NCBI RefSeq assembly: GCF_002916655.1
Contig: NZ_PPSM01000014.1
Coordinates: forward strand, 310,001-374,000
Direction of reading: 5' to 3'
Length of the DNA stretch: 64,000 bases
Origin: Novosphingobium sp. HII-3
GTDB taxonomy: Bacteria; Pseudomonadota; Alphaproteobacteria; Sphingomonadales; Sphingomonadaceae
In this document: piece after piece, positions 42,862 through 61,898 of the stretch
Layout of the letters: every line of letters begins with the position of its first letter
How positions within the stretch are numbered: the first letter of the stretch is position 1
The notes under the pieces: model-generated
Told to the model about the DNA's origin: nothing
What the model saw: only the letters and a program-made list of their open reading frames with translations
Databases searched by the model: none
Translations under genes and position numbers: made by a program

Positions 42862-44124
42862 TCAGAAGGCGGGACGGTCCAGTTCGTCTAACCCAAGTTC
42901 GGCGCAGAGTGCGGCCCGCGCGGCCAGGCAGTCTGCCCAAAGCGCCGGGCTGCCGATGTCTTCCACCGCAATCTGCTCCGGCCAGAGGCGGGCCACCAGC
43001 GCCTCAATGCGGTCGAGCCTGTCCGGCGTGGCGAGGAAGCGGGGATCTATGGTCCCCGGGTCGGCTACCACCCGCAGGCGCAGGCAGGCCGGGCCGCCGC
43101 CGTTCGCCATGCTTTCGCGCAGATCGTGGACGAAGAGGTGGCGGATGGGGCCGTTGCCCGCCACGTGGGCCTCAAGCCAGCTCCAGACAGCGGGCGTCTC
43201 CTGCGCCTCGCCGGGGAGCACCAGCGCGGCCTCTCCGGATGGCAGCGTCACCAGCTGCGCGTTGAACAGGTAGGAGCGGATCGCGTCCGCGAGGCTGACC
43301 GCGCGGGCCGGGACCTCGACGATCTCGATCTCCGGCAGCTTGTCGCGCAGGCTGCCGTACAGGGCGTCACGCTCGGCAAATGCGAGTTCATGGGTGAACA
43401 GCACCCGTTCGTTGGCGACGGCCACGACATCGTTGTGAAAGGCGCCGGCGGCGATGGCTTCGTCCGACTGGCGAGCGAAGACCGTGCGTTCGGGGGCAAG
43501 GCCGTGCCGGCGGGCGACGGCCTCGCTCGCCTCGCGGTGCTGGCGCGCGGGGAAGGGACCGCCTGCGACGCCGTAGACGAAAACCTCGACGCCGGGCGCA
43601 TCGTGATGCGCGCACAGGCGCATGTGATTGGCCGCGCCCTCGTCCCCGAACGGTGGGGGCACGGGTTCATGAACTGCAAAGTGCCGCTCGTCGGCGAAGG
43701 CGAGGCGAAGCTGCGCCAGCGTCTCTCGCCACTCATGGCTGCGGTGCGGCATCGTCACAAGGTTGGCGACCGTCAGGTGGCACCGCCCGTCTGCGGTATC
43801 CGGGGCGGGAGAGACGGTGGCCGCGTTCGCCGCCCACATGGAGGACGCGGAGAAAGCGTTGGCCCGCAGGCCGGGGGCGGCATCCTCCATGGTGGTGCCG
43901 AGCCGGCGCAACCAACCCGCGTCCGGGCGGCGCTGCGGCAGGAAGAAACCCTGCACCAGACCGCGTTCCAGGTTCGCGCGCATCTTGGCGATGCCCTGCA
44001 GGGCGGCGGCGCGCGGGGCCGACACCTTGCCAAAGTTGCGCGTGGACGCGAGGTTGCCGAGGCTCAGCCCCGCGTAGTTGTGACTGGGGCCGACGATGCC
44101 GTCGAAATTGATCTCGGTGCGCAT
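42862..44124 (-). CDS. astB: N-succinylarginine dihydrolase
   Basis: AstB hydrolyses N2-succinylarginine to succinylornithine, releasing two ammonia and CO2. The 420-residue product shows the family start NFDGIVGPSHNYAGLSLGN, the SMWAANAATVSPAPDTADG segment, FHNDVVAVANERV with the His/Asp pair, and the catalytic Cys in GGPACLRLRV. It is a little shorter than E. coli AstB (447). It follows astA by 8 bases in the leftward operon. Confidence 0.96.
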   Translation of the reverse strand: MRTEINFDGIVGPSHNYAGLSLGNLASTRNFGKVSAPRAAALQGIAKMRANLERGLVQGFFLPQRRPDAGWLRRLGTTMEDAAPGLRANAFSASSMWAANAATVSPAPDTADGRCHLTVANLVTMPHRSHEWRETLAQLRLAFADERHFAVHEPVPPPFGDEGAANHMRLCAHHDAPGVEVFVYGVAGGPFPARQHREASEAVARRHGLAPERTVFARQSDEAIAAGAFHNDVVAVANERVLFTHELAFAERDALYGSLRDKLPEIEIVEVPARAVSLADAIRSYLFNAQLVTLPSGEAALVLPGEAQETPAVWSWLEAHVAGNGPIRHLFVHDLRESMANGGGPACLRLRVVADPGTIDPRFLATPDRLDRIEALVARLWPEQIAVEDIGSPALWADCLAARAALCAELGLDELDRPAF

Positions 44125-44132
44125 GGGATCCC

Positions 44133-45143
44133 TCAGGCCGGAGCGTAAGTGATGCTGTCGCCGGTGCTTACGCCCAGCAGCGTGGCGGCGGCCTCGTCCA
44201 GCGTGCCGTCCGCACCGACACAGCCGAGGCAGGCGCGGAAGTCGGCCAGCCGGCCCGAGGCGATCAGGTGCGTGGGCTCACTCTCCGGGGCGGGCAGCAG
44301 GCGGGTGACCTCTTGCGTGCGCGCCTCCTGCACCGTGCGGATCTGGTCCGTCCGCGCGATCATGGTCGGGCCACCGTCGAAGATGTCGATGTAGTTCTGG
44401 AAGGCGAACCCCTCGCTCTCCAGCATGCGCATCGCCGGGCGGCCGGAGTAGTGCGGCTGGCCCATGACCTGCCGCGCGGCCTCGGAAAGCAGGGCGGTAT
44501 AGATCGGGTGCTTGGGCATGAGATCGGCGATGAACTGGTTGCCGTGCCGCCCGTTGAACTCGTCCGCATCGCGGAAACTCATGTCGAAGAAGCGCCCGGC
44601 AAGCCCGTCCCAGAACGGCGAGTTGCCGGCATCGTCGATCGCGCCGCGCAGTTCGGCCAGGGTGGTGTCGGCAAACCGCGCGCGATGCATGGCGATGAAC
44701 AGGTAGCGGCTGCGCGCAAGCAGCTTGCCGACGCCCGCTGAACGCTCGGTGGCGTCGAGGTACAGCCCGCCCACTTCGCTGGCACCGTCAAGATCGGTGG
44801 AGAGCGTCAGCATCTCCGCTCGGAAGGTGCGGTCAAGCTCCTTGGAATGCTGGGTGATGCGGCCGATGCGGTAGGAATAGAACGGCAGCTCCGTGCCGAC
44901 CTGCGAGAACGCCTGACAGGTGCCGCGCACCTTTCCGGCCCGTGTGTCCTCGAGGATGAACACGAACAGGTCGTTGCCGATCTCGCCGTCGTCGCGCGCG
45001 AAGCTGCGGGCGGCGCGTTCCAGCTTGCCCTTCAGCGTGGGCCGGTCCGGCGGCAGGTTGGTGAAGCCGCCGCCCGTGCCCTTGGCCATGCGGTAGAGCG
45101 CCTCGATGTCACCCTCGCGGGCGGTGCGCAGAAGAAAGGTCAA
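44133..45143 (-). CDS. astA: Arginine N-succinyltransferase
   Basis: AstA makes N2-succinylarginine from arginine and succinyl-CoA, the first step of the AST pathway. The 336-residue chain begins FLLRTAREGDIEALYRMA and has GLYLDATERSAGVGKLLARSRYLF (given as about 127-150) and the GRPAMRMLESEGFAFQNYIDIFDGGP region (about 230-255), which are AstA signatures; the fold is GNAT-like. A single copy is present rather than the paired alpha/beta genes of Pseudomonas. The start overlaps the M20 hydrolase stop by four bases. Confidence 0.96.
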   Translation of the reverse strand: MTFLLRTAREGDIEALYRMAKGTGGGFTNLPPDRPTLKGKLERAARSFARDDGEIGNDLFVFILEDTRAGKVRGTCQAFSQVGTELPFYSYRIGRITQHSKELDRTFRAEMLTLSTDLDGASEVGGLYLDATERSAGVGKLLARSRYLFIAMHRARFADTTLAELRGAIDDAGNSPFWDGLAGRFFDMSFRDADEFNGRHGNQFIADLMPKHPIYTALLSEAARQVMGQPHYSGRPAMRMLESEGFAFQNYIDIFDGGPTMIARTDQIRTVQEARTQEVTRLLPAPESEPTHLIASGRLADFRACLGCVGADGTLDEAAATLLGVSTGDSITYAPA

Positions 45144-46357
45144 GCGTGTACTCCGTTCCGGTCGAGGCGGTGCAGGACGAGGGCCGTGAGGCGGGCGCGC
45201 GCATCAAGCGAACTGGCGATCATGAACTCCTGCGGCGAATGAATCGCGCCGCCCAGCGCCCCCATCGTGTCCAGCACAGGGACCCCGCAGGCGGCGATGT
45301 TGTTGCCGTCGCACACGCCGCCGGTATCCTGCCAGCGCATCGGTTCGTCGCCCAGCTGGCCTAGGTCTGCGGCAGCCTTGCCGACGAGGGTGAACAGGGC
45401 CTCTGTCTGCGGCGTGATCGGCTTGGGCGGTCGCGAGATCTGGCCGTGAAGGTGGATCTGCACATCGTGCGTGACGCTTGCGTGCGCCACGGCTTCATCG
45501 ACAAGAGCGCGGGCGATTTCGGCCAGTTCGGGAGAACGCGGGCGAAGGTTGAAGTGCAGGATCGCGAGGTCAGGCACCGTGTTGTTCGGCGCGCCGCCCT
45601 CGATACGGGCCGGATTGATGGTGAGGCCCTCCCGTATCCCAGCAGCGAGCCGCAGGGCCAGCTCGCTCGCCGCGAGGATGGCGTTGCGGCCGTCCTGCGG
45701 GTTGCGCCCGGCATGCGCGGAGCGGCCGGTGATGACGGCGGCGTAATTGCCGGAACCGGGCCGCGCCCGGGCCATGGAGCCGTCCGGCAGCCCCGGCTCG
45801 TAAGTGAGCGCCGCCAGCTTGCCTTGTGCGCGCTGCGCGATCAACGCGGCGGAGGACAGCGAGCCTGTCTCCTCGTCGCTGTTGATGAGCACGTCGTAGC
45901 CGAGCGAGGGAGCTGTCTGCTCGTAGGCAACAAGCCCTGCCAGCATCAGTGAAAGACCACCTTTCATGTCCGCCGTCCCGGGGCCGTTCAGCCGGTCTGC
46001 GTCGATCCAGCTGCAGGTCTGGAACGGGTGCTCGCGTGCATAGACCGTATCCATGTGCCCGGTGAGGAGGACACGCCGCTCCGCCTCCGGACGGACTGAC
46101 AGGAGAAGATGGCGGCCGTGGCCCACCTCGCGAAGTTTGCCTTCCGCGTCGACCTTTTCGACAGGCGCGGGATCCACGAACCGGATGTCTCCGGGCAAGG
46201 CCGCGAAAGCTTCGGCGAGGCGATCGGCCATGGCGGCAAGCCCGGCCAGGTTGCCAGTGCCGCTGTTGATCGCAGCCCAGTCGAGTGTGCGATCGAGGAT
46301 CGCTTCGCGCTCGATCGGCGCGAGCAGGTCCAGCTCCTCGACGGAGAGCGCGCTCAC
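45140..46357 (-). CDS. M20-family metallohydrolase (carboxypeptidase G2-like) in the AST operon
   Basis: The 405-residue product is a zinc-dependent M20 peptidase/amidase with LTGHMDTVYAREHPFQT (first His), GPGTADMKGGL (bridging Asp), INSDEETGSLSS (catalytic Glu pair), a dimerisation domain (about 190-310) containing GRSAHAGRNPQDG, and the C-terminal GAIHSPQEF with the last His. It lies between astD and astA, overlapping both by four bases. The usual AST pathway ends with succinylglutamate desuccinylase AstE, an M14-type enzyme that is missing here, so this M20 enzyme probably removes succinate from succinylglutamate. That assignment is an inference. Confidence 0.9.
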   Translation of the reverse strand: MSALSVEELDLLAPIEREAILDRTLDWAAINSGTGNLAGLAAMADRLAEAFAALPGDIRFVDPAPVEKVDAEGKLREVGHGRHLLLSVRPEAERRVLLTGHMDTVYAREHPFQTCSWIDADRLNGPGTADMKGGLSLMLAGLVAYEQTAPSLGYDVLINSDEETGSLSSAALIAQRAQGKLAALTYEPGLPDGSMARARPGSGNYAAVITGRSAHAGRNPQDGRNAILAASELALRLAAGIREGLTINPARIEGGAPNNTVPDLAILHFNLRPRSPELAEIARALVDEAVAHASVTHDVQIHLHGQISRPPKPITPQTEALFTLVGKAAADLGQLGDEPMRWQDTGGVCDGNNIAACGVPVLDTMGALGGAIHSPQEFMIASSLDARARLTALVLHRLDRNGVHA

Positions 46358-47778
46358 GGCTTCAGTCTGCCGCCGAGGGCGCCGGCGTTACCGGAGGCAT
46401 CGGGTGCCTCGAAGCTGGCGACCGGGTACGCGCAGTAATCGGCGGCGTAGTAGGCGCTGGGACGGTGGTTGCCGCTCTCCCCCAGACCTCCGAACGGCAT
46501 GGACCCGGCGGCGCCGGTAGTCGGCCGGTTGCGGTTGACGACGCCCGCCCGGCATTCGACGAGGAAGCGCTCCCACAGCGCATCGTCGCCGCTGATAAGC
46601 CCGGCGGAAAGGCCGAAGCGGGTGTTGTTCGCCGCCTCCATGGCGGCGGCGAAATCGGGCACGCGGCTGACCTGGAGGATGGGCGCGAAGATTTCCTCAT
46701 CGGGCACGAACACGCCGGTCACGTCGAGCATTCCGGGAGTGACGAACGCGGCGGAACGGCCCTCGATCCCGGTGAAGGGGCGGATCACGCGGGCGCCGCG
46801 TCCGGCGAGATCGTCGAAGCAGGCCCGGGCGTTGGCTGCCGCGCCTTCGTGGATCAGGGGACCGATCCAGGGCTCGGGCGTCTCGTTCCACGCGCCTATG
46901 ACGAGCCGGTCGGCAAGGGCGGCGACAGCCTGCACCAGCGCCTCGCCGAACGCGGTGTCGGGCACGATGAGGCGCCGCGCACAGGAACAGCGCTGGCCGG
47001 TGGTGATGAAGGCCGACTGCACGACAACCGAGGCGGCCTCCTCCACGTCGGCGGCGTCCCAGGCGACGAGCGGGTTGTTGCCGCCGAGTTCAAGCGCGAG
47101 GATGACGTCGGGCCGATCCGCGAAGACGCGGCGGAAGTGCGCGCCCGCAGCTGCCGAGCCGGTGAACAGCAGGCCATCGATGTGCCCGCCGATCAGTGCC
47201 TCTCCGGTAGCCCGGGCGCCCTGTATGCACTGGAAGACGTGGGGATGATCGACCAGCGCTTCGGCCCAGCAGTCGGCCATGGCGGCGCCCGTGGCCGGTG
47301 TCATTTCCGAAGGCTTGAACACCACCGTGTTGCCTGCCAGCAGGGCGGGGACGATGTGGCCGTTGGGCAGGTGGCCGGGGAAGTTGAACGGGCCGAGCAC
47401 GGCCATCACGCCATGCGGCCGGTGGCGCAGCACCGCCTGGCCGAACGGCATGTCGCTGCGCTGTTCGCCGGCGCGCTCCGCCTGGGCCTTGATCGAGAGG
47501 CCCACCTTGCCGATCATGGACGCGACTTCGCCGCGCGCTTCCCAGAGCGGCTTGCCAGTCTCGCGCGCAATCGTCTGTGCAAGGGCGTCCTTGCGCTCCT
47601 CCAGCGTGGCGCGGTAGCGTTCGACCACTTCCACCCGCGCCGCGATGGGCAAGGCGCCCCACGCGGCAAAGGCCCGGCGGGCGCGCAGGAGGGCGGCCGC
47701 CACCGCGTTCGCGTCAGCGATCTCGCCCTCCCAGACCAGCGAACCGTCTGCGGGATCGAACGACTGGAGCGTGCTCAT
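46354..47778 (-). CDS. astD: N-succinylglutamate 5-semialdehyde dehydrogenase
   Basis: AstD oxidises succinylglutamate semialdehyde with NAD to succinylglutamate. The 474-residue aldehyde dehydrogenase has LGPFNFPGHLPNGHI, the NAD-site GSAAAGAHF, the catalytic Glu in LALELGGNNP and the catalytic Cys in TTGQRCSCARRL. The length and the FNFPGHLPNGHIVPAL segment match AstD better than other ALDHs. It overlaps its neighbours on both sides by four bases within the operon. AstC, the aminotransferase that makes its substrate, is not in this window. Confidence 0.95.
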   Translation of the reverse strand: MSTLQSFDPADGSLVWEGEIADANAVAAALLRARRAFAAWGALPIAARVEVVERYRATLEERKDALAQTIARETGKPLWEARGEVASMIGKVGLSIKAQAERAGEQRSDMPFGQAVLRHRPHGVMAVLGPFNFPGHLPNGHIVPALLAGNTVVFKPSEMTPATGAAMADCWAEALVDHPHVFQCIQGARATGEALIGGHIDGLLFTGSAAAGAHFRRVFADRPDVILALELGGNNPLVAWDAADVEEAASVVVQSAFITTGQRCSCARRLIVPDTAFGEALVQAVAALADRLVIGAWNETPEPWIGPLIHEGAAANARACFDDLAGRGARVIRPFTGIEGRSAAFVTPGMLDVTGVFVPDEEIFAPILQVSRVPDFAAAMEAANNTRFGLSAGLISGDDALWERFLVECRAGVVNRNRPTTGAAGSMPFGGLGESGNHRPSAYYAADYCAYPVASFEAPDASGNAGALGGRLKP

Positions 47779-48809
47779 GCCTTGGCCCTCGTGACTGCAA
47801 AGATACCCGTCGCATTGCCGCTGTCGAACGTGAGATCGAGCAGGCCGGTGTCGGGATCGACATCGCGGGAGATGAATTCGTAGAACGAGCCCGGCACGTC
47901 GCGGACGGTCTCGCCGCCATCGGGCAGGCGGAACCGGCGCGCCACTTTATCGGCAAGGACGGCCGTCTGGCGCACCCGGCCGTTGCGGGAGACCTCGACA
48001 GTCGGCTTCAACGGGTAGCCGTCCGCCTTCAGCGCCTCGGCATGGGCGTCCACGTCCGGCACGCGCGTGGTCGCGTGGTTGAAGGCGTTGCCCTCGGTGG
48101 CGATCCATCCGCCTTCGCGGCTATGTTCCAGGAGTCGTTCGTAATCGGCGAGCGCAGGCACCGGATGCTGCCGATCGAACGCGCGCATGGCACCGCGCAG
48201 GATCGTTTCCGCATCGTCCAGCGAACAGTCGCCGTCGCGACCGATGGCGTCGATCGCAGCCCATTCCGCTTCCCCCAGGGGATCGGCGGACTGTCCGAAG
48301 ATCGCTTCGGCCGCGGTCTGCGCGGGGGCGGCCAGCTGGTCGACGTGCAGTTCCGAGACGAAGAACTGTGGGATGGAGGCGGGCAGATCGGCGTGTACGT
48401 AGGCCCGACCCGTCATCGTAAGCGCGGGCAGGGGGTAAAGCCCGCGCACTTCGTAGCCCAGCGGTTCGAGGAAGCGCCCGAAGGCGCCGTGTCCGGGCGG
48501 CAGGCCCCCCGTGCTGCCGTCTATCGTGCGCAAGGCGCCGTGATCGAAGACGATCGGCTCGCCCGCCGCCCGCATTCGGCCGACATAGCGCGCCGCAGTC
48601 GGCACTCGCTGCAGCAGGTCGAGGAACAGCGCTGCGTTAAGGGCCATCGCCACCTGCGCCCGGCTTACCCGGCCCGGTCCCGCGCCGGGTATCGCAGAAT
48701 CAATGGCAAGGGCGCGCACGGCCCAGGCCGCCTGCTCCGGCCCGGCCAGGCAAGCGGTGAGGCGTTCGATCGTGGCGCGGGTGTCGTCGTCGCGCGGTGC
48801 AGGAGCCAT
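47775..48809 (-). CDS. HglS/DUF1338-type 2-oxoacid dioxygenase/decarboxylase
   Basis: The 344-residue product belongs to the DUF1338 family, whose member HglS of Pseudomonas putida converts 2-oxoadipate to D-2-hydroxyglutarate with Fe(II) and O2. The metal triad and substrate Arg are all present: His90-x3-Arg94 (FDHGALRT), His245 (FNHATTRV) and Glu311 (SFYEFISR). The spacings between them (155 and 66) are close to those I recall for HglS (His70, Arg74, His226, Glu294). It is the first gene of the leftward AST operon and overlaps astD by four bases. Its role in arginine degradation is not established; a 2-oxoacid of that pathway is a reasonable guess. Confidence 0.87.
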   Translation of the reverse strand: MAPAPRDDDTRATIERLTACLAGPEQAAWAVRALAIDSAIPGAGPGRVSRAQVAMALNAALFLDLLQRVPTAARYVGRMRAAGEPIVFDHGALRTIDGSTGGLPPGHGAFGRFLEPLGYEVRGLYPLPALTMTGRAYVHADLPASIPQFFVSELHVDQLAAPAQTAAEAIFGQSADPLGEAEWAAIDAIGRDGDCSLDDAETILRGAMRAFDRQHPVPALADYERLLEHSREGGWIATEGNAFNHATTRVPDVDAHAEALKADGYPLKPTVEVSRNGRVRQTAVLADKVARRFRLPDGGETVRDVPGSFYEFISRDVDPDTGLLDLTFDSGNATGIFAVTRAKA

Positions 48810-49080
48810 GTGTCCCCTCTCTGTTCATTTATTGCTGTGAAGGGCAACATAGGAAACGGATCGGACGTTGTCCAATGCGATGGAACCGCCGCGACTCCCT
48901 GCTGTTTCAGTCAAAGGCCGTGGGCTGGAAGCACGCGCGGCAAAGGGCGTTCTCAGGGGAGCCGGCCTCCACAGAACCGTTCTGGGTAACATCCTGCCCT
49001 TTTTTACGCACTTGCGGGAAACCGAATCGGCACCGGGGAATTGTCCGTGCAACAGTTCATCCCTCGTTCACGGTGTTCGA

Positions 49081-51417
49081 ATGGCTAACTTGCCGCTTTC
49101 TCAGGATTTCGAATTCGGCCGCGAGGTGGCGGAGGTCCACTCGATCTTCGAGGCGACCGGCGCAACGCCCAAGCGTGGCATGCGCCTCGCGCTCATTGGA
49201 AACTTCGCTCCGCGCAAGTGCGGCATAGCGACGTTCACGACCGACATCTTCGAGAAGCTCGGGGCCTACCACCCCGAGATTACGGTCGATGTCCACGCGC
49301 TTGACGATCCGCGCCGGCCCCTGAGCTACGAGGGCGTCGCGAGCACCATCGTCTGTGACGATCCCGAAGCTTATTCCCGCGCCGCGCGCCGCATCAACGA
49401 GGCTGGTGTCGATGCGGTCTGGCTCCAGCATGAGTACGGCATCTTCGGCGGCCCCGATGGCGAGATGGTCACCCACTTCGTGGACCGCCTCGCCGCGCCG
49501 CTGGTGCTGACCCTGCATACTGTCCTGAGCGAGCCGTCGGAGCGGCAGCGCGCGATCATGCGGCACCTCATCACCCGCGCCTCGCGGATCATGGTGATGT
49601 CCAGCCGCGCCCGCGACCTGCTGATCTCGCATTACGAGGCGGGCCCAGGCCTCATCGAAGTGATCGAGCATGGCGCTCCCGATCGTCCTTTCGGCCGGCA
49701 GGACGAGTTCAAGGCGCGCTTCGGGCTGGAAGGGCGCAAGGTTCTCATGAGCTTTGGCCTGATCGGTCCAGGCAAGGGCCTGGAGCACGCGATCCGGGCA
49801 CTTCCGAAGATCGTCGCCCGCCACCCGGAGGTGCTTTATCGCATTGTCGGCGCCACTCACCCGAACCTGGTGGCTGCGGAAGGTGAAGCCTACCGCGAAA
49901 GCCTCGAAGCGCTGGCGCGCGAGCTTGGCGTCGCGGATCATGTCGGCTGGGAGAACCGGTTCCTCCAGACGGACGAACTGCTGGACCAGCTGGAAGCATC
50001 CGACATCTATCTCACGCCCTATCCGGGCCTGCAGCAGGCGACTTCGGGTACGTTGAGCTATGCCGTTGCCCTGGGCAAGGCGGTGATTTCCACCCCTTAC
50101 GTCCATGCGCGCGAACTGCTGGCCGGCGACGCCGGCCTTCTGATCGAGCCGAACTCCAGCGACACGATCGCGCAGGCTGTCATTACCCTGCTCGATGATC
50201 CGGAAGCTATGACGGCGATGCAGCGCCGCGCCTATGCGCGGGGCCGCGAAACGATCTGGCCGCGGTTCGCCAGCGCGTCGGCCCAGCTGGTGACCAAGGC
50301 CGTGGCACCTGAACCGGTCGTGCCGCCGGTGACGGCAATCCCCGGGCTGTCCGCCGTTCTGGCGATGAGCGATGCCACGGGCATGCTCCAGCATTCCGTG
50401 GGCGTCGTGCCGGATCGCCGCCACGGCTACTGCCTGGACGACAACGCGCGTGCGCTCATGCTGATGAACGTGGCCGAGGGCATCTCGGTTGGCGAGAGGA
50501 TGAAGTGGAGCCTGGCCTACGCCGCTTTCATCCAGTCCGCGTGGAATCCGGACCTGAAGCGCTTCCGCAACTTCATGCGTTTCGACCGCAGCTGGTGCGA
50601 GGACGAGGGGTCGGAAGATTCGAACGGCCGCGCGGTCTGGGCTCTCGGGCAAACGATCGAGCTGTCCCGCGACCCCGGCCTCGCGGATTGGGCGCAGGGC
50701 CTGTACGACGATGTCATTCAGGCTGTCGGTGCCCTCGGTTCCCCCCGCGCCACCGCCTTCGCCATGCTGGGCGCCTGCGCGGTGTTGCGCCGCGACCCGG
50801 CCCATGCCGCATCGCGCGCGCTGGTTGAACGCGGCGGCGACTTCCTGATGCGCCTTCTGGGTGAAGGGCGCCGTCCCGACTGGGCCTGGTTCGAGGCCGT
50901 GCTCGGCTACGACAACCCGCGCCTGTCCCAGGCGCTGATCGAAGCGGGCATCGCCATGGAGCAGGAGCACTGGATCGGTGCAGGACTTGAAACCCTGCAG
51001 TGGATCTGTGCGCAGCAGGTTTCGGCACGGGGCCAGTTCCGCCCGATCGGATCGGAAAGCTTCCACAAGGCGCACAGCTACCTGCCGTTCGACCAGCAGC
51101 CGCTTGAGGCGCAGGCGGCGGTGGAGGCAGCCCGCACCGCCTGGCGCGCGACTAGCGGCGCCTTCTGGCGCAAGCATGCGATGATCGCCTGGCGCTGGTT
51201 CTTCGGCGGCAACGATCGCGGGGTCGTGCTCGCCGACCTCGCCACGGGCCGCTGCCGCGACGGCGTGACCCCGCGTGGCGCCAACACGAATTGTGGCGCG
51301 GAATCGATCCTGGCCTTCCAGTTGTCGCATTATGCGCTCATGGAACTGGTCACGTCATCGACGCCCCGCCCAGGGGAAGGAGGACTGTTTGAACCGGCCC
51401 GAAAACGCCTGGTCTGA
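49081..51417 (+). CDS. Two-domain glycosyltransferase (GT4 plus C-terminal alpha/alpha-toroid domain)
   Basis: The 778-residue product joins two parts. Residues about 30-410 are a GT-B, family-4 glycosyltransferase: NFAPRKCGIATFT, AVWLQHEYGIFGGPDGE, SFGLIGPGKGLEHAIRAL, the donor-site DIYLTPYPGLQQATSGTLSYAVALG, each typical. Residues about 430-770 contain HGYCLDDNARALML, FMRFDRSWCEDEGSEDSNGRA and FRPIGSESFHKAHSYLPFDQQPLE (about 665-690), a pattern of a helical (alpha/alpha)6 toroid such as is found in glycoside hydrolases and epimerases. Acceptor and donor are unknown; by its coupling to a GH130 gene, a mannose donor is plausible. The start ATG has a weak ribosome-binding site; upstream in-frame codons to 48868 are less likely. 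Confidence 0.86.
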   Translation: MANLPLSQDFEFGREVAEVHSIFEATGATPKRGMRLALIGNFAPRKCGIATFTTDIFEKLGAYHPEITVDVHALDDPRRPLSYEGVASTIVCDDPEAYSRAARRINEAGVDAVWLQHEYGIFGGPDGEMVTHFVDRLAAPLVLTLHTVLSEPSERQRAIMRHLITRASRIMVMSSRARDLLISHYEAGPGLIEVIEHGAPDRPFGRQDEFKARFGLEGRKVLMSFGLIGPGKGLEHAIRALPKIVARHPEVLYRIVGATHPNLVAAEGEAYRESLEALARELGVADHVGWENRFLQTDELLDQLEASDIYLTPYPGLQQATSGTLSYAVALGKAVISTPYVHARELLAGDAGLLIEPNSSDTIAQAVITLLDDPEAMTAMQRRAYARGRETIWPRFASASAQLVTKAVAPEPVVPPVTAIPGLSAVLAMSDATGMLQHSVGVVPDRRHGYCLDDNARALMLMNVAEGISVGERMKWSLAYAAFIQSAWNPDLKRFRNFMRFDRSWCEDEGSEDSNGRAVWALGQTIELSRDPGLADWAQGLYDDVIQAVGALGSPRATAFAMLGACAVLRRDPAHAASRALVERGGDFLMRLLGEGRRPDWAWFEAVLGYDNPRLSQALIEAGIAMEQEHWIGAGLETLQWICAQQVSARGQFRPIGSESFHKAHSYLPFDQQPLEAQAAVEAARTAWRATSGAFWRKHAMIAWRWFFGGNDRGVVLADLATGRCRDGVTPRGANTNCGAESILAFQLSHYALMELVTSSTPRPGEGGLFEPARKRLV

Positions 51418-52699
51418 ACCGCTACGCATATTCGACACGCGCCTGCACGCTGACCCCTCACGAGTGGTCATCCGCCCGTTCCACCTGGGCTGGCAGGCAA
51501 AGAACGCCCGTGACGGTCGCGCCATGCGGCTGGTCCTGGACGTGGCGGCGCTCAGTGAGGAGCGTGCGCGGCTCGAGTATGCGCGTGTCCTTGCCGACTT
51601 CAAGGAGAGACACTGGCAGACGGAGTGCATCTTTGCCGAACGCTTCAAGGAAGTGGCGGCAAATCTCGCGCTCGATCCGGCAGACTACTCGGAGACGAAG
51701 CAGCGGCTGATCGGTTCGTACTTCTGCCACGAATACACGTTCGCGGCGGCGGCACTGATGAATCCCTCGATCGTCCCTTCGCCGGACCAGTCCGGTCTGC
51801 AGGACGATTGCGTGCGCTTCATCATGTCGCTGCGGGCAGTGGGCGAGGGGCACATCAGTTCCATCGCTTTTCGCGAAGGTATCGCGGAGTGCGACGGCGA
51901 TTTCCGCCTCTGGCCCCAAGCCGCCTTCGCGACGTCGGTCGAGTTGGACGAGGAGGAACTGGTCGACGCCGATTGCTGCGTATCGGTGCATCGCCATGCG
52001 GACTCCAGTCTATCGAACACCGTCATCTTCCCCATTACCGAGCAGCAGCGCGGCGGACTGGAAGACCTGCGGCTGGTGCGCTTCGACCATGGCGGGGGCG
52101 ATTACGAGTGGGTCGGCACGTACACCGCCTATTCCGGCAGTTCGATCCGTTCCGAACTCCTGCGCACGCGGGATTTCCGCCGCTTCGATCTGGAGCCGAT
52201 CCTCGGCAAGGCGGGACGCAACAAGGGCATGGCCCTGTTTCCGGAGAAGATCGACGGGCGCTACACCATGGTCGGGCGGCAGGACGGCAAGAACCTGTTC
52301 CTCCTGCGTTCGGACCAGCTCAACGTCTGGGATGACGACGGCATCCTGCTGATGGAGCCGAAATTTCCCTGGGAGTTCATCCAGATCGGCAACTGCGGCA
52401 GCCCGATCCTGATCGACGAGGGCTGGCTCCTGTTCACGCACGGCGTGGGGGCGATGCGCAAGTATTCGCTAGGATGCGCCCTGCTGGACCGGGACGACCC
52501 GAGCAAGGTCCTGGCCCGCACCACCGAACCTGTGCTCACGGCTGAGAATGCCGACAGGTCCGGCTATGTGCCCAACGTGATCTATACGTGCGGCGCGCTG
52601 AAGGTGGGTGAGCGGCTGCTGATCCCCTATGGCATTTCCGATAGCACCGTGGGCTTTGCAACCTGCGAGATCGACGGCCTGCTGGGCCTGATGGAGTGA
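51389..52699 (+). CDS. GH130-family glycosidase/phosphorylase
   Basis: GH130 enzymes cleave beta-mannosides, mostly by phosphorolysis, giving mannose 1-phosphate. The 436-residue product has the five-bladed propeller pattern: YEWVGTYTAYSG, NKGMALFPEKIDGRYTMVGRQDG, and GNCGSPILIDEGWLLFTHGVGAMRKYSLGCALLD (about 365-398), where a catalytic Asp and phosphate-binding Arg and His are expected. TTG 51389, with AAGGAGG five bases upstream, is the start; it lies 29 bases inside the glycosyltransferase gene, so translation is coupled. Hydrolysis and phosphorolysis cannot be told apart safely. Confidence 0.87.
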   Translation: MNRPENAWSEPLRIFDTRLHADPSRVVIRPFHLGWQAKNARDGRAMRLVLDVAALSEERARLEYARVLADFKERHWQTECIFAERFKEVAANLALDPADYSETKQRLIGSYFCHEYTFAAAALMNPSIVPSPDQSGLQDDCVRFIMSLRAVGEGHISSIAFREGIAECDGDFRLWPQAAFATSVELDEEELVDADCCVSVHRHADSSLSNTVIFPITEQQRGGLEDLRLVRFDHGGGDYEWVGTYTAYSGSSIRSELLRTRDFRRFDLEPILGKAGRNKGMALFPEKIDGRYTMVGRQDGKNLFLLRSDQLNVWDDDGILLMEPKFPWEFIQIGNCGSPILIDEGWLLFTHGVGAMRKYSLGCALLDRDDPSKVLARTTEPVLTAENADRSGYVPNVIYTCGALKVGERLLIPYGISDSTVGFATCEIDGLLGLME

Positions 52700-52704
52700 T
52701 CCCG

Positions 52705-53757
52705 ATGCTGGAGCGGCTTGGCCTGGACCTGCCCCTGATACAGGCCCCGATGGCAGGCACGAGCACGCCGCTTCTGGCGGCCGAAGTCTCCAACGCGGGA
52801 GCGCTCGGTTCAATCGCCCTGGGGGCAGGCAACGCGGCCGATGCCCGTGTAGCCATCGACGAACTGCGGGCCCGTACCACGCGGCCCTTCAACCTCAACC
52901 TCTTCGTCCATCAGGCTCCGGTGGCGGATCCGGAACGGGAGGCGGGCTGGCTGGACTGGCTGCGCTCCCTCTTCGTGGAATTCGGGGTCGAGCCGCCCGC
53001 CGCCCTGCAGTCGCCGTACGCGAGTCTGGCCGAAGATGCCGAACTGCTGGCTCTCGTCGTCGAGGCGGCGCCCGCCGTGGCCAGCTTCCATTTCGGCCTG
53101 CCGGACGCGGAGGCTGTGTCCGCCCTGCACGAACGCGGCGTGCTCCTCCTCGCCACCGCCACCAACCTTGCCGAGGCACGGGCGATCGAGGCGGCGGGGC
53201 TGGACGGAATCATCGCGCAGGGTATCGAGGCGGGCGGCCACCGTGGCATGTTCGATCCCGCGGCAACAGACCCGCAGCTTGGCACCGTGGCGCTGACGCG
53301 GCTGCTTGTCCGTGAAACCGGGCTTCCCGTCATCGCGGCGGGCGGGATCATGGACGGTGCGGGCATCGCGGCGGCACTGGACCTGGGCGCGGCTGCCGCA
53401 CAACTCGGCACCGCCTTCGTCGCCTGTCCGGAATCGGCTGCCGACGAATCGTACCGCGCGGCCCTGATGGGGCCGGGCGCTTACGAGACGACACTGACGC
53501 AGCTTGTCTCCGGCCGACCCGCCCGGGCGCTGGCAAACCGCTTCACCGCGCTTTCCGCGCGGGTGGGGGAGCGGCGGCCACCGGACTATCCCATCGCCTA
53601 CGATGCGGGCAAGGCGCTCAACGCCGCCGCCAAGGCGAAAGGCGAGCATGGTTTCGGCGCGCACTGGGCCGGACAGGGTGCGCCGCTGGCCCGCGCCATG
53701 CCCGCCGCCCAGCTTGTGGCGACCCTCAGCGCCGAACTGCACGCCGCCCGCCGCTGA
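52705..53757 (+). CDS. Nitronate monooxygenase (2-nitropropane dioxygenase family)
   Basis: These FMN enzymes oxidise nitronates such as propionate-3-nitronate, a plant and fungal toxin. The 350-residue TIM-barrel protein has LIQAPMAGTSTPLLAAEVSNAG at its start, NLNLFVHQAP, the catalytic-His region FHFGLP, QGIEAGGHRG with FMN-binding Gly/His, and VIAAGGIMDG and LGAAAAQLGTAFV for phosphate binding. ATG 52705 follows a TGGAG site; a GTG at 52696 is possible. It follows the GH130 gene by 5 bases, probably in one transcript, though no metabolic link is evident. Confidence 0.92.
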   Translation: MLERLGLDLPLIQAPMAGTSTPLLAAEVSNAGALGSIALGAGNAADARVAIDELRARTTRPFNLNLFVHQAPVADPEREAGWLDWLRSLFVEFGVEPPAALQSPYASLAEDAELLALVVEAAPAVASFHFGLPDAEAVSALHERGVLLLATATNLAEARAIEAAGLDGIIAQGIEAGGHRGMFDPAATDPQLGTVALTRLLVRETGLPVIAAGGIMDGAGIAAALDLGAAAAQLGTAFVACPESAADESYRAALMGPGAYETTLTQLVSGRPARALANRFTALSARVGERRPPDYPIAYDAGKALNAAAKAKGEHGFGAHWAGQGAPLARAMPAAQLVATLSAELHAARR

Positions 53758-53796
53758 CGGGCCAAAGCTCCCGCCGCGACAGGCTGCGCCGCCAAC

Positions 53797-56604
53797 TCAG
53801 CCGTGAGCGCCGAACTCGTTCGCCAGCGCCGTGGTGATCCGCAGGGACAGCGCATAGGACCGCGCTATGGGATCGATGAAGTCCTTGTGGATCTGTGCGT
53901 ACCCCGTCGCGCTTGAATCCGGGTAGTCGCTCGGCGCGTCCACCGCGAAATCGTTGATCGATGGGAAATGCACCGGAAAGGCGCGGCGCAGTTGCGCCAG
54001 CCCGTCCTCCACCCGCAGGGTGAAGAACATCTCCAGCACGTCCTCCCGGCTGATGTCGTTGGCGCGGCTGAACTGTGGCACCATGACCGCGCGCAGGAAC
54101 ATGTGCTGGAACAGCGCAATCCGCAGCGCCTGCAACACGCCGAGCGACCGGCGCGTGTGCTCCCGGTCCTTCAGGGGTGCTTCGTCCGGGATGAGTTCGA
54201 GCAGCCGGTGCAGCTTCAAGGCATCGACGCGAAGCCTTGAGGCGAGGCGGCGGTAGACCCCGGTCCGGTCGTCCTTGGTGAGGTATTCGGCCAGCTTGAG
54301 GCAGGCGTCGGCGATGGTCTCCTCCCCACCGCGATAGGGGCGGCTGGCCCAGTATGCCGAATTGAACAGCTCGCCATAGGCCGAGACAGTCTTGATCGAG
54401 GCGAGGGCGTTGGCGGCGCGGGCAAGGCGCACGATCTGCCGCCCGCGCGCGCTTTCCCGCAGCAGCGCCGCGATTTCCTCGCGGTTGCCGTCCGCCGCCG
54501 TGCCGATGCCGGCAATGACGTTCACGGGGTAGCCAAGCTGCTGGAGGATGGCGTTGTGCGGAATGGCGCGGATCTGCCTCAGGCTCATCGTGCGGTCGGA
54601 CGCGAGATCCGACTGGCGCCGCGATTTGCGGCTGCCGGTGTCGTTGAGCAGGCCCAGCCCGAACGCGGTTATTGCGCGGCTGTAAGTCGCGCTTTCAAGA
54701 TGCTGGTGCTGGACCGCGCGGATGGCGCGGTAGAAATCGAGGCTGAGATCGGTGCGGCGGTAGAACAGGTCCGTGGGTGCATCGACATCCGCTTCCCACA
54801 GCGGGCGTTCGGCCATGCGGGTGAGCGTTGCCAGCGCAAGTTCGTCCGAGCCGAACCAAAGGTAGCCGTCGCCACCCTGGAAGCTGACTTCCGGCTCCAG
54901 CCGGATGCCTGCGCGCAGGAAGCGCCGGCGAGCCCATGGCGACATCTGCCAGTGGAACCGGTCGTCGATGCTGGAGGGATGGCAGCCGCGCCCCATCGAT
55001 TCGCCGCCGGTGTTGAAGATCAGCGCGGCCACGTCCGACAGGCCGTTGGCGGCCATGGCTTCGGAGAGGCGGCCCTGCAGACGCTCGATCGCGAGCGCGG
55101 CGGGCACCTGGCCGACGAACCGGCCGGCGTCGGAAAAGCCGGTCTGGATCGAGACGCGGCCTCGCTTGCGCGCATAGTCACGATAGGCCGGCTCAGCCAG
55201 CACGGCGTCGAGGAAGCGGCCGCCGTGTTCCAGCGCGCTTTCCGTTTCGAACAGCGGCGACACATCGACCTTGTCGTCGATCCCGAACATGCGGGCGAAG
55301 TAGAGCGCGGCGAGCACCGTCGTCGGTTCTTCGCATTCGGCCACGAGCATCCGTATCGGCGCATCGCCGTCGATATGGCCAAGGATCTGGGCCATCGCGA
55401 GGAACTGGCGCACGGCGGTCGAATTCTCGATCGCGAGCGCGGCGAAGTTGGAGCGGAGCGGCTTCACTTCGGCAAGCAGTTCACGCATCCGCACCAGCGC
55501 CGCTTGGCTGGCAAGGCTGAGCTTGCCGTCCGGATCGATGCGGCGGCGGATCGCGTTCTGAAGCTGGGAGGCGTTCACGCGGAAGTGAATCCAGCCCATG
55601 CCAAGACCATCAGCCCGCATCGCGGCGGCGGTGACGAGGAGGGCGCGGGCCTGCGCCTGATCGGCGTGGCGGGCCTCTTCCTCAAGCCGGGCGATGATGG
55701 GTTCGAGACTGACGATCTTGTCCGCGTGATCGGCGGTCAGGCCGTTCGCGGCGGCGGACAGCGCGTCGGGATCGGTGAGATCCTGGCTGAAGGCACTTGC
55801 CAGCTCGGCCGTGTGGGCGTGGGCACGCTCAAGCTGCTGCGCGATGTCGGGCGCGGCCTTGTCCAGCGCCATGGCATAGCCTTCGAGGCGCTGGGCCTTC
55901 TCTTCCAGCCGGTAGCGGATCGAGGTGGACCACGAGATGTCCGTGCGCCCGTCCATGTCGTAGCCGACCCAATGCGCGAACCGCACAGGCATCGGGCTGA
56001 GGCCCTTCCAGCGCTTCGGCCAGCGCGCGGCGGCCTTGTCGAACAGGCGGGCGTTCATCCGGTCACGCGCCTTCTGGCCTCGTGCGAGGGCGGCCATGGC
56101 GGCGGCGTGCTCGTAGTCGAGGGTGATCGTGTCACGCCCGGAAGAGGCCGCGCAGACCGAGGCGTCACTGAAGTCCCCGCTGGAGGCAGAGACCGCCACC
56201 GCCTCGCTCTGTGCGGCGCTCAGCAGGAAGGTGGGGTGCGCGGTAAAGACGACATGCGCCGCCGGGCGCTGCCATCGGGCAGCGAAGGCGTTGAAATCGT
56301 CGTCGTCTCCGGCCTCGTCCGCCAGTTGGTCCAGCGCCCTGTCGTTTTCCCCAAGAGGCAGGGTGCCGAGAATCCGATCAAGCCGGGCGGCCCGGGCGCG
56401 CAGCCCCTCGCACTCCATCTCGGCGACAAGCGCTTCAATGTCGTCAAGGGCCATGCTGCCGTCTTCCAGCAACCGCGACAGTTCCAGGCCAAGCTGGAAC
56501 ACCGGGTTGAACAGCGGGCTGGTCGCGGTGAGCTTGTGCAGTTCCTGCAGGCGCGCCGTCAGCTGGTCCACCGTGCGCAGCGCCGGCTGCCCCCCGGCGC
56601 CCAT
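53797..56604 (-). CDS. Divergent phosphoenolpyruvate carboxylase-like protein
   Basis: The 935-residue product has the length and overall pattern of PEP carboxylase, which makes oxaloacetate from PEP and bicarbonate. Recognisable segments are FTAHPTFLLS (His123, E. coli His138), GYDMDGRTDIS, VSPLFETESALEHGG, GFSDAGRFVGQ, FNTGGESMGRGCHP and GGDGYLWFG. Key residues differ: the canonical SDSAKDAG Lys546 is Arg495, and in FHGRGGxxGRGG the catalytic His579 and Arg581 are Asn531 and Gly533, whereas Arg587 remains (Arg539). The C-terminal NTG is absent (ends FGAHG). It starts in a TGATG overlap with eda, last in the ED operon. It may have a different or lost activity. Confidence 0.8.
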   Translation of the reverse strand: MGAGGQPALRTVDQLTARLQELHKLTATSPLFNPVFQLGLELSRLLEDGSMALDDIEALVAEMECEGLRARAARLDRILGTLPLGENDRALDQLADEAGDDDDFNAFAARWQRPAAHVVFTAHPTFLLSAAQSEAVAVSASSGDFSDASVCAASSGRDTITLDYEHAAAMAALARGQKARDRMNARLFDKAAARWPKRWKGLSPMPVRFAHWVGYDMDGRTDISWSTSIRYRLEEKAQRLEGYAMALDKAAPDIAQQLERAHAHTAELASAFSQDLTDPDALSAAANGLTADHADKIVSLEPIIARLEEEARHADQAQARALLVTAAAMRADGLGMGWIHFRVNASQLQNAIRRRIDPDGKLSLASQAALVRMRELLAEVKPLRSNFAALAIENSTAVRQFLAMAQILGHIDGDAPIRMLVAECEEPTTVLAALYFARMFGIDDKVDVSPLFETESALEHGGRFLDAVLAEPAYRDYARKRGRVSIQTGFSDAGRFVGQVPAALAIERLQGRLSEAMAANGLSDVAALIFNTGGESMGRGCHPSSIDDRFHWQMSPWARRRFLRAGIRLEPEVSFQGGDGYLWFGSDELALATLTRMAERPLWEADVDAPTDLFYRRTDLSLDFYRAIRAVQHQHLESATYSRAITAFGLGLLNDTGSRKSRRQSDLASDRTMSLRQIRAIPHNAILQQLGYPVNVIAGIGTAADGNREEIAALLRESARGRQIVRLARAANALASIKTVSAYGELFNSAYWASRPYRGGEETIADACLKLAEYLTKDDRTGVYRRLASRLRVDALKLHRLLELIPDEAPLKDREHTRRSLGVLQALRIALFQHMFLRAVMVPQFSRANDISREDVLEMFFTLRVEDGLAQLRRAFPVHFPSINDFAVDAPSDYPDSSATGYAQIHKDFIDPIARSYALSLRITTALANEFGAHG

Positions 56605-57230
56605 CAGCGCGCCAGCCCCGCAGCAGCGCGAGCGGCGGCCTCGATCTGCGCCACGTCCGGCTTGCCCTTGGGAACCATCCAGCTTCCGCCGACGCAGATT
56701 ACGGCATCGAGCGCCAGCCATTCCGGCGCGTTCTGCGGCGTGACGCCACCCGTCGGGCAGAATTTCGCGGCGGCGAGGGGAGCGGAAATGGCCTTGAGCG
56801 CCGACGGGCCTCCCGCCGCCATGGCGGGGAAGAACTTCAGCCGGTCGAACCCGCATTCGAGCGCGAACATGATGTCGCTGGCGTTAGCGGTGCCCGGCAG
56901 GAAAGGGATCTTGGACTTGTAGGCGGCTTCGGCGAGGTTCGGCGTCAGCCCGGGGGAGACGATGAACTCGGCTCCGGCGTCGACCGAGCGCTTGAGGTCG
57001 TCCGGCGTGAGAACCGTGCCGGCGCCGACGACGGCGCCCGGTACCTGCTTCATTACCCGTATGGCCTCAAGCGCGCAGTCTGTGCGCAGCGTCACTTCCA
57101 GCGCGGGCAGCCCCCCGGCGACAAGCGCTTCGGCGATCGGCCGTGCATGCTCGATGTCCTCGATCACCAGCACCGGGATGACCGGGGCGAGGCGCATGAC
57201 CTTTTCGACGGCTTCGGATTGCGTGGTCAT
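56604..57230 (-). CDS. eda: 2-dehydro-3-deoxy-phosphogluconate (KDPG) aldolase
   Basis: Eda splits KDPG to pyruvate and glyceraldehyde 3-phosphate. The 208-residue chain has the active-site Glu in [25 protein letters not shown], the PGLTPN segment and the Schiff-base Lys in [14 protein letters not shown], as well as the phosphate-binding [12 protein letters not shown]. The start overlaps the glk stop by one base (TAATG), and its stop overlaps the PEPC-like start. Confidence 0.97.
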
Positions 57231-58207
57231 TACTGAAGATGCTCCCTGGCGAAGGCGGCCGCAGCGCCGAAGAGGCCCGGCTGCGGATGAGTGATGAGCT
57301 TGACGGGCATCCTGGCCATCAGGCCGGCGAAGCGACCCTTGGCGCGGAAACGCTCGGCGAAACCGGACGAGCAGATCGTCTCGCGGATGCGGTAGCCAAG
57401 CCCGCCGGCGATGACGACGCCGCTGGCGCCATGGGCGAGGGCGTAGTCGCCCGCCGCCGCGCCGAGAGCGAGGCAGAAACGGTCCACCGCCGCGGCGGCA
57501 AGGCTGTCCTCGCCCGACATGCCGGCGGTCCAGATCTCGACGTCGGTCTTCTCGTAGATTGCCTTGTGCTCCATGGCGGCGAGCGTTGCGTAGATGTCGA
57601 CGATGGCCGGGCCGGAGACCACGCGCTCCACCGATACGCGGTTGTGGCGCTTTCTCAGCCGGGCGAGGATGGCATCCTCGATGACATCGAGTGGCGCGTA
57701 GTCGATGTGCCCGCCCTCGGTCGCCTGGACGTGATAGCCGCCCCGACCGTCGCGGTAGAGATGCGCCACTCCAAGGCCCGTGCCGGGGCCAAGCACGCTC
57801 AGTGTACCGGTTGGGGGCAGCGCGCCTTCGGGGCCGGTGAGGTGGAGGAAGTCGCCCTCATCCGCCGTGGCAACGGCGTGGCCGACCGCCTCGAAGTCGT
57901 TGACGACGGTTTGACGCCTGGGGCCGAGCATCTCCTGGATCCGTGCCGGGCGCAGGATCCAGGGGTTGTTGGTGAAGCGGATCACTTCATCGCCGACCGG
58001 GCCGGCAACCGACATGGCGACCGCCTCAGGAAGGGTGCCCCCCTGCAGATCCCGGAAGGCCTGCCACGCCAGCTGGAAACTGCCATGGTCCTTGGTGTGC
58101 AGCGTCGCAGGCTCGGCCAGCGTGATCTGCCCATCGTTGGCAATGGTTGCGATGGCGAAGCGTGCGTGCGTGCCGCCGATATCGACGGTGACGATCTCAG
58201 TGCTCAC
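57230..58207 (-). CDS. glk: Glucokinase
   Basis: Glk phosphorylates glucose with ATP, feeding zwf. The 325-residue product is of the proteobacterial glucokinase type, not [18 protein letters not shown] at the start, [14 protein letters not shown] with a catalytic Asp, [17 protein letters not shown], and [16 protein letters not shown] in the middle. [14 protein letters not shown] near the end is the adenine-site loop. It is coupled to edd by a four-base overlap and to eda by a one-base overlap. Confidence 0.96.
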
Positions 58208-61597: not shown

Positions 61598-61898
61598 GGT
61601 TGCCTTTCCATCGGTCGGCTGCGCTCCTCCTCACAGCCGTGATGCATATACCCAGAGGTTCGGTGGTATTCGTCCACTAGTGCACGCGACCCACGCTGTT
61701 TTCACATAACAAACCCCCGGCGCCAAGGCTAGGTTGCTTGGATGCGGATGCAATGATTTTGCCGCCGCCGTGCCGCCAGACGTGGCTGCCGAGCGTCTTT
61801 TCGCTCCGCGTGAATACGAATGTTGCAACACCAGTGTCGCTGAAGCATGTCACGCGACGCGCAGCCACCACGGCAACGCCCAGAGCGAGAGAGAACCG
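61598..61898. other. Divergent zwf/histidine-kinase intergenic region
   Basis: I see no gene in these 301 bases. A TATATG hexamer about 60 bases before zwf on its strand could be a -10, without a clear -35. CTGTTTTCACATAACA at about 61697-61712 has CTGT plus CATAACA, faintly like half of a PhoB box, but it does not make the CTGTCAT direct repeat. No terminator is needed between divergent genes and none is seen. Confidence 0.4.

Follow-up and report, generated by a model that had tools for sequence, protein, structure and literature searches.

Several described systems come close to the locus analyzed here. Enzymes of family GH130 act on beta-mannosides with inversion, giving alpha-mannose-1-phosphate, and in Thermoanaerobacter the cluster Teth514_1786-1789 encodes a GT4 glycosyltransferase, a mannose-1-phosphate guanylyltransferase, and two GH130 phosphorylases, for which salvage of guanosine diphosphate mannose (GDP-mannose) was proposed; according to the same paper, beta-1,2-oligomannan had not yet been traced to any internal source (PMC4264767). 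In mycobacteria, methylmannose polysaccharide is produced by a self-recycling system in which one cluster encodes ManT, termed a retaining GT4 enzyme, and the (alpha/alpha)6 endomannosidase MmpH (PMC9883506). Cyclic beta-1,2-glucan synthase combines a GT84 part with a GH189-type barrel (PMC12102758), and in Leishmania the beta-1,2-mannan reserve mannogen is turned over by the GH130-like GT108 (PMC8950772). Here, we describe a pair of genes from Novosphingobium sp. HII-3, found in a stretch of 64,000 nucleotides (contig NZ_PPSM01000014.1, positions 310,001 to 374,000; hereafter the window, whose own numbering is used). The first gene, GTtor, encodes a GT4-like half fused to an (alpha/alpha)6 barrel (protein P0001), and the second encodes a GH130 protein (P0002).

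The pair is widely conserved yet unstudied, and it extends the published theme of GT4 and GH130 genes. Among the matches listed in the open-access literature, judged by titles and the starts of abstracts, none described a GT4-barrel fusion with GH130. We predict, with confidence about evenly balanced, that the pair constitutes a cytoplasmic module that makes, trims, and recycles a mannose-based oligo- or polysaccharide, probably one with beta-1,2-mannose. We infer the cytoplasmic location because no signal peptide is obvious by eye in the two sequences.

Conservation of the GTtor-GH130 pair

A search with GH130 retrieved 50 named loci, and in 49 of them (L021-L069; L and G numbers are our labels for loci and genomes) GTtor lies directly upstream of the GH130 gene on the same strand, being in pieces at L045 and cut by the contig end at L048. 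No GTtor was found on the 5.2-kb contig of L070, which belongs to a KSB1 bacterium and has a GH130 of 41% identity. The same association appears when the search starts from the barrel: across a phylum sample of 398 genomes, its profile matched 19. GH130 lies within 600 nucleotides in 16 of the 18 genomes other than our own, on the same strand in 15 and on the opposite strand in one (L129), and the remaining two are L142, truncated where its contig ends, and L144, with none on its 8.4-kb contig. In a class sample, which shares genome G072 with the phylum sample, the profile matched 8 of 337 genomes, and 6 of the 7 other than our own hold the pair. The seventh, locus L106 (G331), had a weak profile match, and tblastn detected no homologue of P0001 or P0002 there. 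An earlier, sequence-only reading of this DNA had made conservation of the pair in relatives a test of its proposal, and from either direction the two genes are indeed kept together.

P0001 has a match (E<=0.001) in 40 of 61 related genomes, in 27 at no less than 302 bits and in 13 at no more than 45 bits, as a generic GT4 protein. The genomes that match P0002 are exactly the 27 with a strong match to P0001 (Fisher p 6e-18, among genomes that are related to one another); in G059 the GH130 matches are weak, and a short-type GH130 adjoins its GTtor. GT4-half-only matches of 60-62% identity are present in two related genomes, at G003:C28:31332-32501 and G007:C13:91715-92845. The barrel is carried by 27 plasmid records, with a GH130 match on 27 of 27. 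Three regions of plasmids that have long-type GH130 and lack GTtor (L150, which is NC_020542.1, L151, and L152) hold copper, TerD, or CheB genes. Relatives of the pair occur in Sphingomonadales, Rhizobiaceae, Devosia, and Fusobacteriota, and in a variant form in Deinococcus.

The arrangement of the genes varies. The order is reversed, with GH130 preceding GTtor, at L081, L101, L102, L120, L141, and L143, and at L073 the two genes are 8.5 kb apart on opposite strands. In Ilyobacter (Fusobacteriota) and at L141, from a proteobacterium of another class, the order is GT4, short GH130, long GH130, and GTtor, and in Deinococcus it is GTtor, GT4, and short GH130; the four-gene arrangement of Ilyobacter and L141 is possibly the ancestral form. 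In G021 and on a Croceicoccus marinus plasmid (L071/L072 and L125/L156), the GT4 half and the barrel are separate genes, in regions that also hold GH130 and a mannose-6-phosphate isomerase gene. These split genes are a natural dissection of the fusion.

Gene layout and translation start

The 778-residue protein, the 29-base overlap, and the AAGGAGG site named in the sequence-only reading were all recovered from the reading frames of the window (Table 1). The reading frames of P0001 and P0002 share bases 51389-51417, and the start of GTtor is backed by orthologues that begin at the same residue, such as those at L003 and L023. By itself, AAGGAGG is no commoner in the window than chance would give (5 copies against 5.83 expected), whereas AAGGAGG-N5-TTG occurs once against an expected 0.08. 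Of 20 loci, namely the window and the 19 of 49 named loci with a GH130 match starting at residue 1 or 2, 15 have a Shine-Dalgarno-like string ahead of the aligned GH130 start; at one of the 20, L066, the aligned start position has no start codon. Counted from the stop of its open reading frame (ORF), GTtor ends at or past the first aligned base of GH130 in 42 of 49 named loci, the exceptions being L029, L045, L060, L062, L063, and L065, together with L048, where no fusion ORF was called. In annotated plasmid records with the genes adjacent in the GTtor-GH130 order, overlap is found in 6 of 8 (L122, L123, L124, L147, L148, and L149), with a gap at L126 and L127. Because the overlap is general, coupled translation of the two genes is plausible.

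TABLE 1 Positions in the window of the two genes and of the features discussed in the text
Feature	Position	Strand	Basis or remark
GT4-barrel fusion gene GTtor (P0001)	49081..51417	+	778 aa; ORF and translation
GT4-like half, residues about 35-404	49183..50292	+	PF13439, PF00534, and PF13692 above gathering score
Q319-x7-Y327 at the GT4 EX7E position	50035..50061	+	alignment to 3c4q
(alpha/alpha)6-barrel half, residues about 418-758	50332..51354	+	AlphaFold2 pLDDT 85.0; 7TEM match
Asp453-Asp454, N-terminal end of second helix, candidate catalytic pair	50437..50442	+	82/83 sequences each
Shine-Dalgarno AAGGAGG for the GH130 gene, within the GTtor gene	51377..51383	+	5 nt before TTG
Long-type GH130 gene (P0002)	51389..52699	+	436 aa; TTG start; PF04041 97.9 bits (gathering cut-off 26)
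Mainly helical N-terminal extension, residues about 1-121	51389..51751	+	AlphaFold2; parts low confidence
Asp226 in GLED, Asp invariant in GH130	52064..52066	+	invariant in 22-row and 48-row alignments
Lys279 in NK	52223..52225	+	invariant in 22-row and 48-row alignments

The GH130 protein

PF04041 covers residues 210-435 of P0002. In the AlphaFold2 model (pLDDT 75.9), the mainly helical extension comprises about 110 residues, with its helices between residues 44 and 111, and the main strands begin at residue 122. By its structural matches the protein has the five-bladed beta-propeller fold, the blades not being counted singly. For the propeller, the 16 best VIA-align rows are GH130 mannoside phosphorylases (Z 29.9-32.8 over 281-293 residues), among them Lin0857 (32.8), Uhgb_MS (32.2), and Teth514_1788 and 1789 (31.7), and the top Foldseek match is Teth514_1788. 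The best folds are those of beta-1,2 enzymes (Z 31.0-32.8), in a near tie with beta-1,4 and other phosphorylases (29.9-30.7), while GH130 hydrolases follow at 27.5-28.2.

Asp226 corresponds by sequence alignment to the proposed catalytic acid of GH130, the role of which is described in PMC4599007. Lys279 aligns with the lysine of the NK motif in the beta-1,2-specific structures 7fip, 9fj8, 5b0p, and 9eqq, in place of which TM1225, listed as beta-1,4 (PMC8950772), has asparagine. According to PMC4599007, a lysine is the determinant of beta-1,2 specificity, and the hydrolases have lost basic residues that bind phosphate. Lys279 would be the beta-1,2-determining lysine, which contacts O2 of the +1 mannose and is Lys199 in BT3780. 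GH130 phosphorylases have three basic residues that bind phosphate, and the mannosidases a Glu pair; Lys279, Arg297, and His351, all invariant in the alignments of P0002, are candidate phosphate-binding residues. Against NF052550 (beta-1,2-mannobiose phosphorylase) P0002 scores 147.9 bits, below the cut-off of 450. Taken as predictors of function, its residues point to the beta-1,2-mannoside phosphorylases.

The two halves of the fusion protein

GT4 models of Pfam cover residues 91-387 of P0001, with PF13439 at 31.1 bits (gathering 28.5) and PF00534 at 65 (26.4), and this half aligns with MshA-type and PimA structures. In GT4 enzymes, the EX7E motif and an Arg/Lys pair contact the donor, features that are typical and not formally defining. 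When P0001 is aligned to 3c4q, which we take to be MshA, Gln319 occupies the place of the first glutamate of EX7E, Tyr327 that of the second, and Leu227 that of the donor-phosphate arginine, so that of the motif and the Arg/Lys pair only the lysine (Lys232) is retained. These replacements are themselves nearly invariant (Q319 in 82, Y327 in 80, L227 in 81, and K232 in 82 of 83 sequences), as are His146 and many other residues of the GT half. The stand-alone second GT4 in the operons of Ilyobacter, Deinococcus, and L141 retains EX7E. On this alignment evidence, the donor site of the fused GT half is altered yet conserved, which leaves open what donor this half uses.

Beyond residue 387 of P0001, Pfam gave no match at E<=0.1. 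An AlphaFold2 model of residues 405-778, with an alignment of 47 sequences (the window and named loci) as input, is nearly all helical (pTM 0.87), with 13 helices of at least 4 residues, 12 of which were read as six hairpins. The top Foldseek match is 7TEM, the structure of YPO2471 (E 1.3e-11), and VIA-align places 334 residues on it at Z 35.2 and a root-mean-square deviation of 3.0, ahead of the next entry, a GH76 protein, at 26.9. A profile built from 20 diverse barrel sequences likewise finds 7TEM (E 1e-14) as its sole match in the PDB at E<=0.001, and the other best structural matches are (alpha/alpha)6 enzymes. The failure of the C-terminal half to model as a toroid had been set in advance as grounds for abandoning the proposal, and it does model as an (alpha/alpha)6 barrel.

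The search for catalytic acids that had been called for in this half yielded six candidates: Asp453, Asp454, Glu605, Glu676, Asp727, and Glu741 are retained in 81 or 82 of the 83 sequences, Ilyobacter and Deinococcus included, whereas Asp513, Asp611, Asp671, and Asp712 are replaced in Ilyobacter, Deinococcus, or both. From their positions near helix starts, the acidic residues would lie at one rim of the modeled barrel. Asp727 and Glu741 are matched in 7TEM, and so is Asp453-454, the latter within a domain alignment that scores a weak 9.9 bits. Given these conserved acids, the barrel appears to be catalytic and not a binding module. Of the "three catalytic modules" that had been claimed for the pair, the barrel is thus favored by its strictly conserved Asp and Glu residues, while the GT4 half has become uncertain through the loss of EX7E and the phosphate-binding arginine.

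Below 7TEM, GH76 alpha-mannanases, 2-epimerases, and exo-glucosaminidases are tied in Z, and assignment of the barrel to the AGE epimerases or to GH76 by fold alone was rejected, as values of 24-27 are shared by many (alpha/alpha)6 families. Neither the GH76 models (fold Z 26.9 to GH76 6u4z, tied with epimerases) nor PF07221 for AGE (fold Z 26.8) matched the barrel at E<=0.1. Membership in GH76 would call for a catalytic Asp-Asp coinciding with Asp453-454. AGE-type 2-epimerases use catalytic histidines, and of the barrel histidines His438 alone reaches 95% conservation.

Mannose-related neighbors

With tblastn, manC homologues were found in 19 and manA homologues in 26 of the 49 named loci, with one or the other in 27, and they lie downstream of the pair in many Novosphingobium, Croceicoccus, and relatives. 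At L036, the manC homologue scores 332.6 bits against TIGR01479 (mannose-1-phosphate guanylyltransferase; cut-off 372.95) and the manA homologue 67.4 bits against TIGR00218 (class I mannose-6-phosphate isomerase; cut-off 116.2). Upstream of the pair, record annotation gives an isomerase in Devosia and Sinorhizobium and a guanylyltransferase/isomerase on plasmids of Sphingomonas koreensis and S. sanxanigenens. In relatives, gene context ties the pair to GDP-mannose synthesis. Strain HII-3 itself carries a manC homologue at another place in its genome, which at 321 bits falls under the curated cut-off.

Whether the additional canonical GT4 could establish a mannose role for this strain was considered, and the argument was set aside, as the strain's own homologue sits by a GH13 gene and may serve another pathway. 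This GT4 (C88:90943-91959; L161) is 58% identical to the GT4 of the L141 operon and adjoins a gene of the GH13 alpha-amylase family, and a GT4 beside GH13 is also seen in L163 and L167.

Proposed role and alternatives

In the module that we propose, the GT half would add mannosyl residues to a glycan from GDP-mannose or, given the altered site, from another activated mannose, and the fused barrel, as a mannoside hydrolase or transglycosylase, would trim or redistribute the chains. The GH130 enzyme would reversibly phosphorolyze terminal beta-1,2-mannose to alpha-mannose-1-phosphate, which a guanylyltransferase would turn back into GDP-mannose. GT4 enzymes retain configuration and form alpha bonds from GDP-mannose. 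The likeliest product would then combine an alpha-mannosyl core or primer, assembled by the GT half, and beta-1,2 units on which GH130 acts; the GH130 enzyme Uhgb_MS is listed with beta-1,2-mannosylated alpha-1,2-mannotriose as a product (PMC8950772).

A number of observations weigh against this proposal. A GT4 enzyme forms alpha bonds and GH130 cuts beta bonds, so a simple make-and-recycle cycle needs an extra assumption; the synthesis and recycling put forward in the sequence-only reading fit the mannose context and the conservation of the pair but stand only with that assumption added. With EX7E and the donor arginine gone from the GT half, transfer from GDP-mannose is not assured, and the barrel fold, common to alpha-mannanases, 2-epimerases, and glucosaminidases, does not fix the reaction. 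The manC and manA homologues score below the NCBIfam cut-offs, neither gene was detected by tblastn at 22 of the 49 named loci, and neither is beside the pair in the window or in its closest relatives, so that the suggested link to mannose has the backing of adjacent homologues in relatives and not of the window. In addition, the partners can occur apart: GTtor is present without GH130 in the fetched flanks of L077, L085, and L086, copies of the GT4 half only are found in G003:C28 and G007:C13, and long-type GH130 occurs without a barrel on 13 of 39 plasmids.

Some relatives of the pair are found among stress genes, with Hsp20, DnaK, and GrpE nearby on two Sphingomonas plasmids (Usp on one of them) and Usp and PPDK nearby at L082, and because of this setting a stress or reserve carbohydrate is suggested; other pair loci have no stress genes around them. 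Such stress islands would also suit a low-mass mannoside, either a compatible solute or a glycoside, made by the GT half and degraded by the barrel or GH130 after stress. We regard this alternative as unlikely, and still the best placed of those considered here. An EcfG-like general-stress promoter motif, GGAAC-N16,17-CGTT, lies upstream of GTtor in 6 of 58 clusters (5 if each cluster is judged by its first member) as compared with 9 of 682 control upstream regions, a post hoc comparison that leans the same way, as does the absence of any annotated glycan polymerase, flippase, or export gene from the pair-bearing plasmid regions shown. The strict motif is absent upstream of the window GTtor, which has a relaxed match only, at 48882 (TGTT, not CGTT); of eight close relatives, seven lack the motif and L029 has one at another distance. 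A barrel working with a phosphorylase, however, fits the trimming of chains better than the turnover of a disaccharide, and the set of GT4, two GH130 genes, and GTtor recalls the two Thermoanaerobacter phosphorylases with their different chain-length preferences (PMC4264767). At L104 (11222-15577) and L082 (2896-7554), very large CheB-CheR-PAS-histidine kinase hybrids directly adjoin the pair and are possible regulators of it.

Salvage of beta-mannan from outside the cell, with GH130 acting catabolically and the fusion as an accessory, seems to us improbable. Many characterized GH130 phosphorylases are catabolic (PMC8950772), GH115 and GH43 genes are near the pair at L105, and on two Rhizobium plasmids an AGE-family epimerase gene follows GH130 (with a PF07221 match for the first). 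However, the constant neighbor of GH130 is glycosyltransferase-like, the commonest extra neighbors are manC and manA, and the annotated genes of the window (42862-60018 and 61734-62885) include no mannan transporter or mannanase. No more probable is a GT half that serves the barrel and GH130 as a non-catalytic scaffold or sensor, leaving two working enzymes: the loss of EX7E and the donor arginine and the EX7E-bearing neighboring GT4 of Ilyobacter, Deinococcus, and L141 would agree with it, but the near invariance of His146, Lys232, Gln319, and Tyr327 is unlike a decayed site, and among the alphaproteobacterial loci searched a second GT4 of that type is found only in L131 and L134.

The proposal of a mannose glycan module can also be extended, with a low probability in our estimation, to a bacterial mannogen-like store fueled mainly by mannose-1-phosphate. 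A sugar phosphate or another non-standard donor would serve the GT half, the barrel and YPO2471 would form a new (alpha/alpha)6 family acting on the same mannan, and GH130 would fill and drain the store; the whole would be the mannan equivalent of cyclic beta-1,2-glucan synthase.

If the proposed module is real, several bacterial phyla carry a dedicated pathway, in part on plasmids, for a mannose glycan inside the cell, and the kind of storage or stress carbohydrate found in Leishmania would extend to bacteria. GH130 would gain an anabolic partner, an uncharacterized (alpha/alpha)6 family would be defined, and the known GT4-like enzymes would be joined by one whose donor site is rewritten.

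Other genes of the window

Upstream of the pair, at 42862-48809 on the reverse strand, a single run holds arginine succinyltransferase (AST) genes, an M20-type hydrolase gene, and a gene resembling 2-oxoadipate dioxygenase/decarboxylase. Downstream, at 53797-56856 on the reverse strand, a 1019-residue protein has a weak partial match to PEP carboxylase (53.1 bits, residues 359-628). Rfam and tRNA scans of the window returned nothing of use.

Comparison with known systems

P0002 shares with the beta-1,2-mannoside phosphorylases Teth514_1788/1789, Lin0857, and Uhgb_MS the propeller, the invariant Asp, the NK lysine, and the best Z scores, and it differs from them in its identity of no more than 31% in structure alignments, in its helical N-terminal extension, and in its score below the NF052550 cut-off. 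By Z score it lies nearer to GH130 (up to 32.8) than to Leishmania GT108 (about 21). For the barrel, the nearest solved relative is YPO2471, for which a literature search found no function: the Asp-Asp pair, Asp727, and Glu741 are aligned between the two, whereas YPO2471 is named a putative exported protein, is not fused, and does not retain Glu605 and Glu676.

Cyclic beta-1,2-glucan synthase has a GH94 phosphorylase part. Its logic is the same, in that a glycosyltransferase, an (alpha/alpha)6 transglycosylase, and a phosphorylase all act on a beta-1,2 glycan, although the sugar is glucose, the parts are in a single polypeptide, and other families fill all three roles. The mycobacterial methylmannose system likewise pairs a mannosyltransferase of family GT4 with a mannan hydrolase of (alpha/alpha)6 fold, whereas it consists of separate genes, includes methyltransferases, and, as described in PMC9883506, has no GH130 in its four-gene cluster. 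The barrel aligns with MmpH at Z 23.1 and 13% identity, far under 7TEM. Asp47, Asp50, and Glu262 of MmpH matter for activity, one legend giving Glu256 (PMC9883506), and these acids may parallel Asp453/454; catalysis of an MmpH-, GH15-, or GH125-like kind by Asp453/454 and a Glu base is only a lead.

The Thermoanaerobacter cluster, which also includes two hypothetical proteins, differs from the window locus in having a guanylyltransferase, and its solved GH130 enzymes are about 300 residues long, without the long extension of P0002. The sequence-only reading had stated that no pathway was described for such a pair. This was too broad with respect to the published cluster of GT4, GH130, and guanylyltransferase genes, and it holds for the fusion itself, as the accessible part of PMC4264767 describes no barrel on the GT4. 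In both settings a GT4 protein is found with beta-1,2-mannoside phosphorylases or their predicted counterpart, and P0002 has its top Foldseek match within this very cluster, which also joins them with a guanylyltransferase. The gene sets of Ilyobacter, L141, and Deinococcus, with their additional GT4 and GH130 genes, resemble the Thermoanaerobacter cluster in composition.

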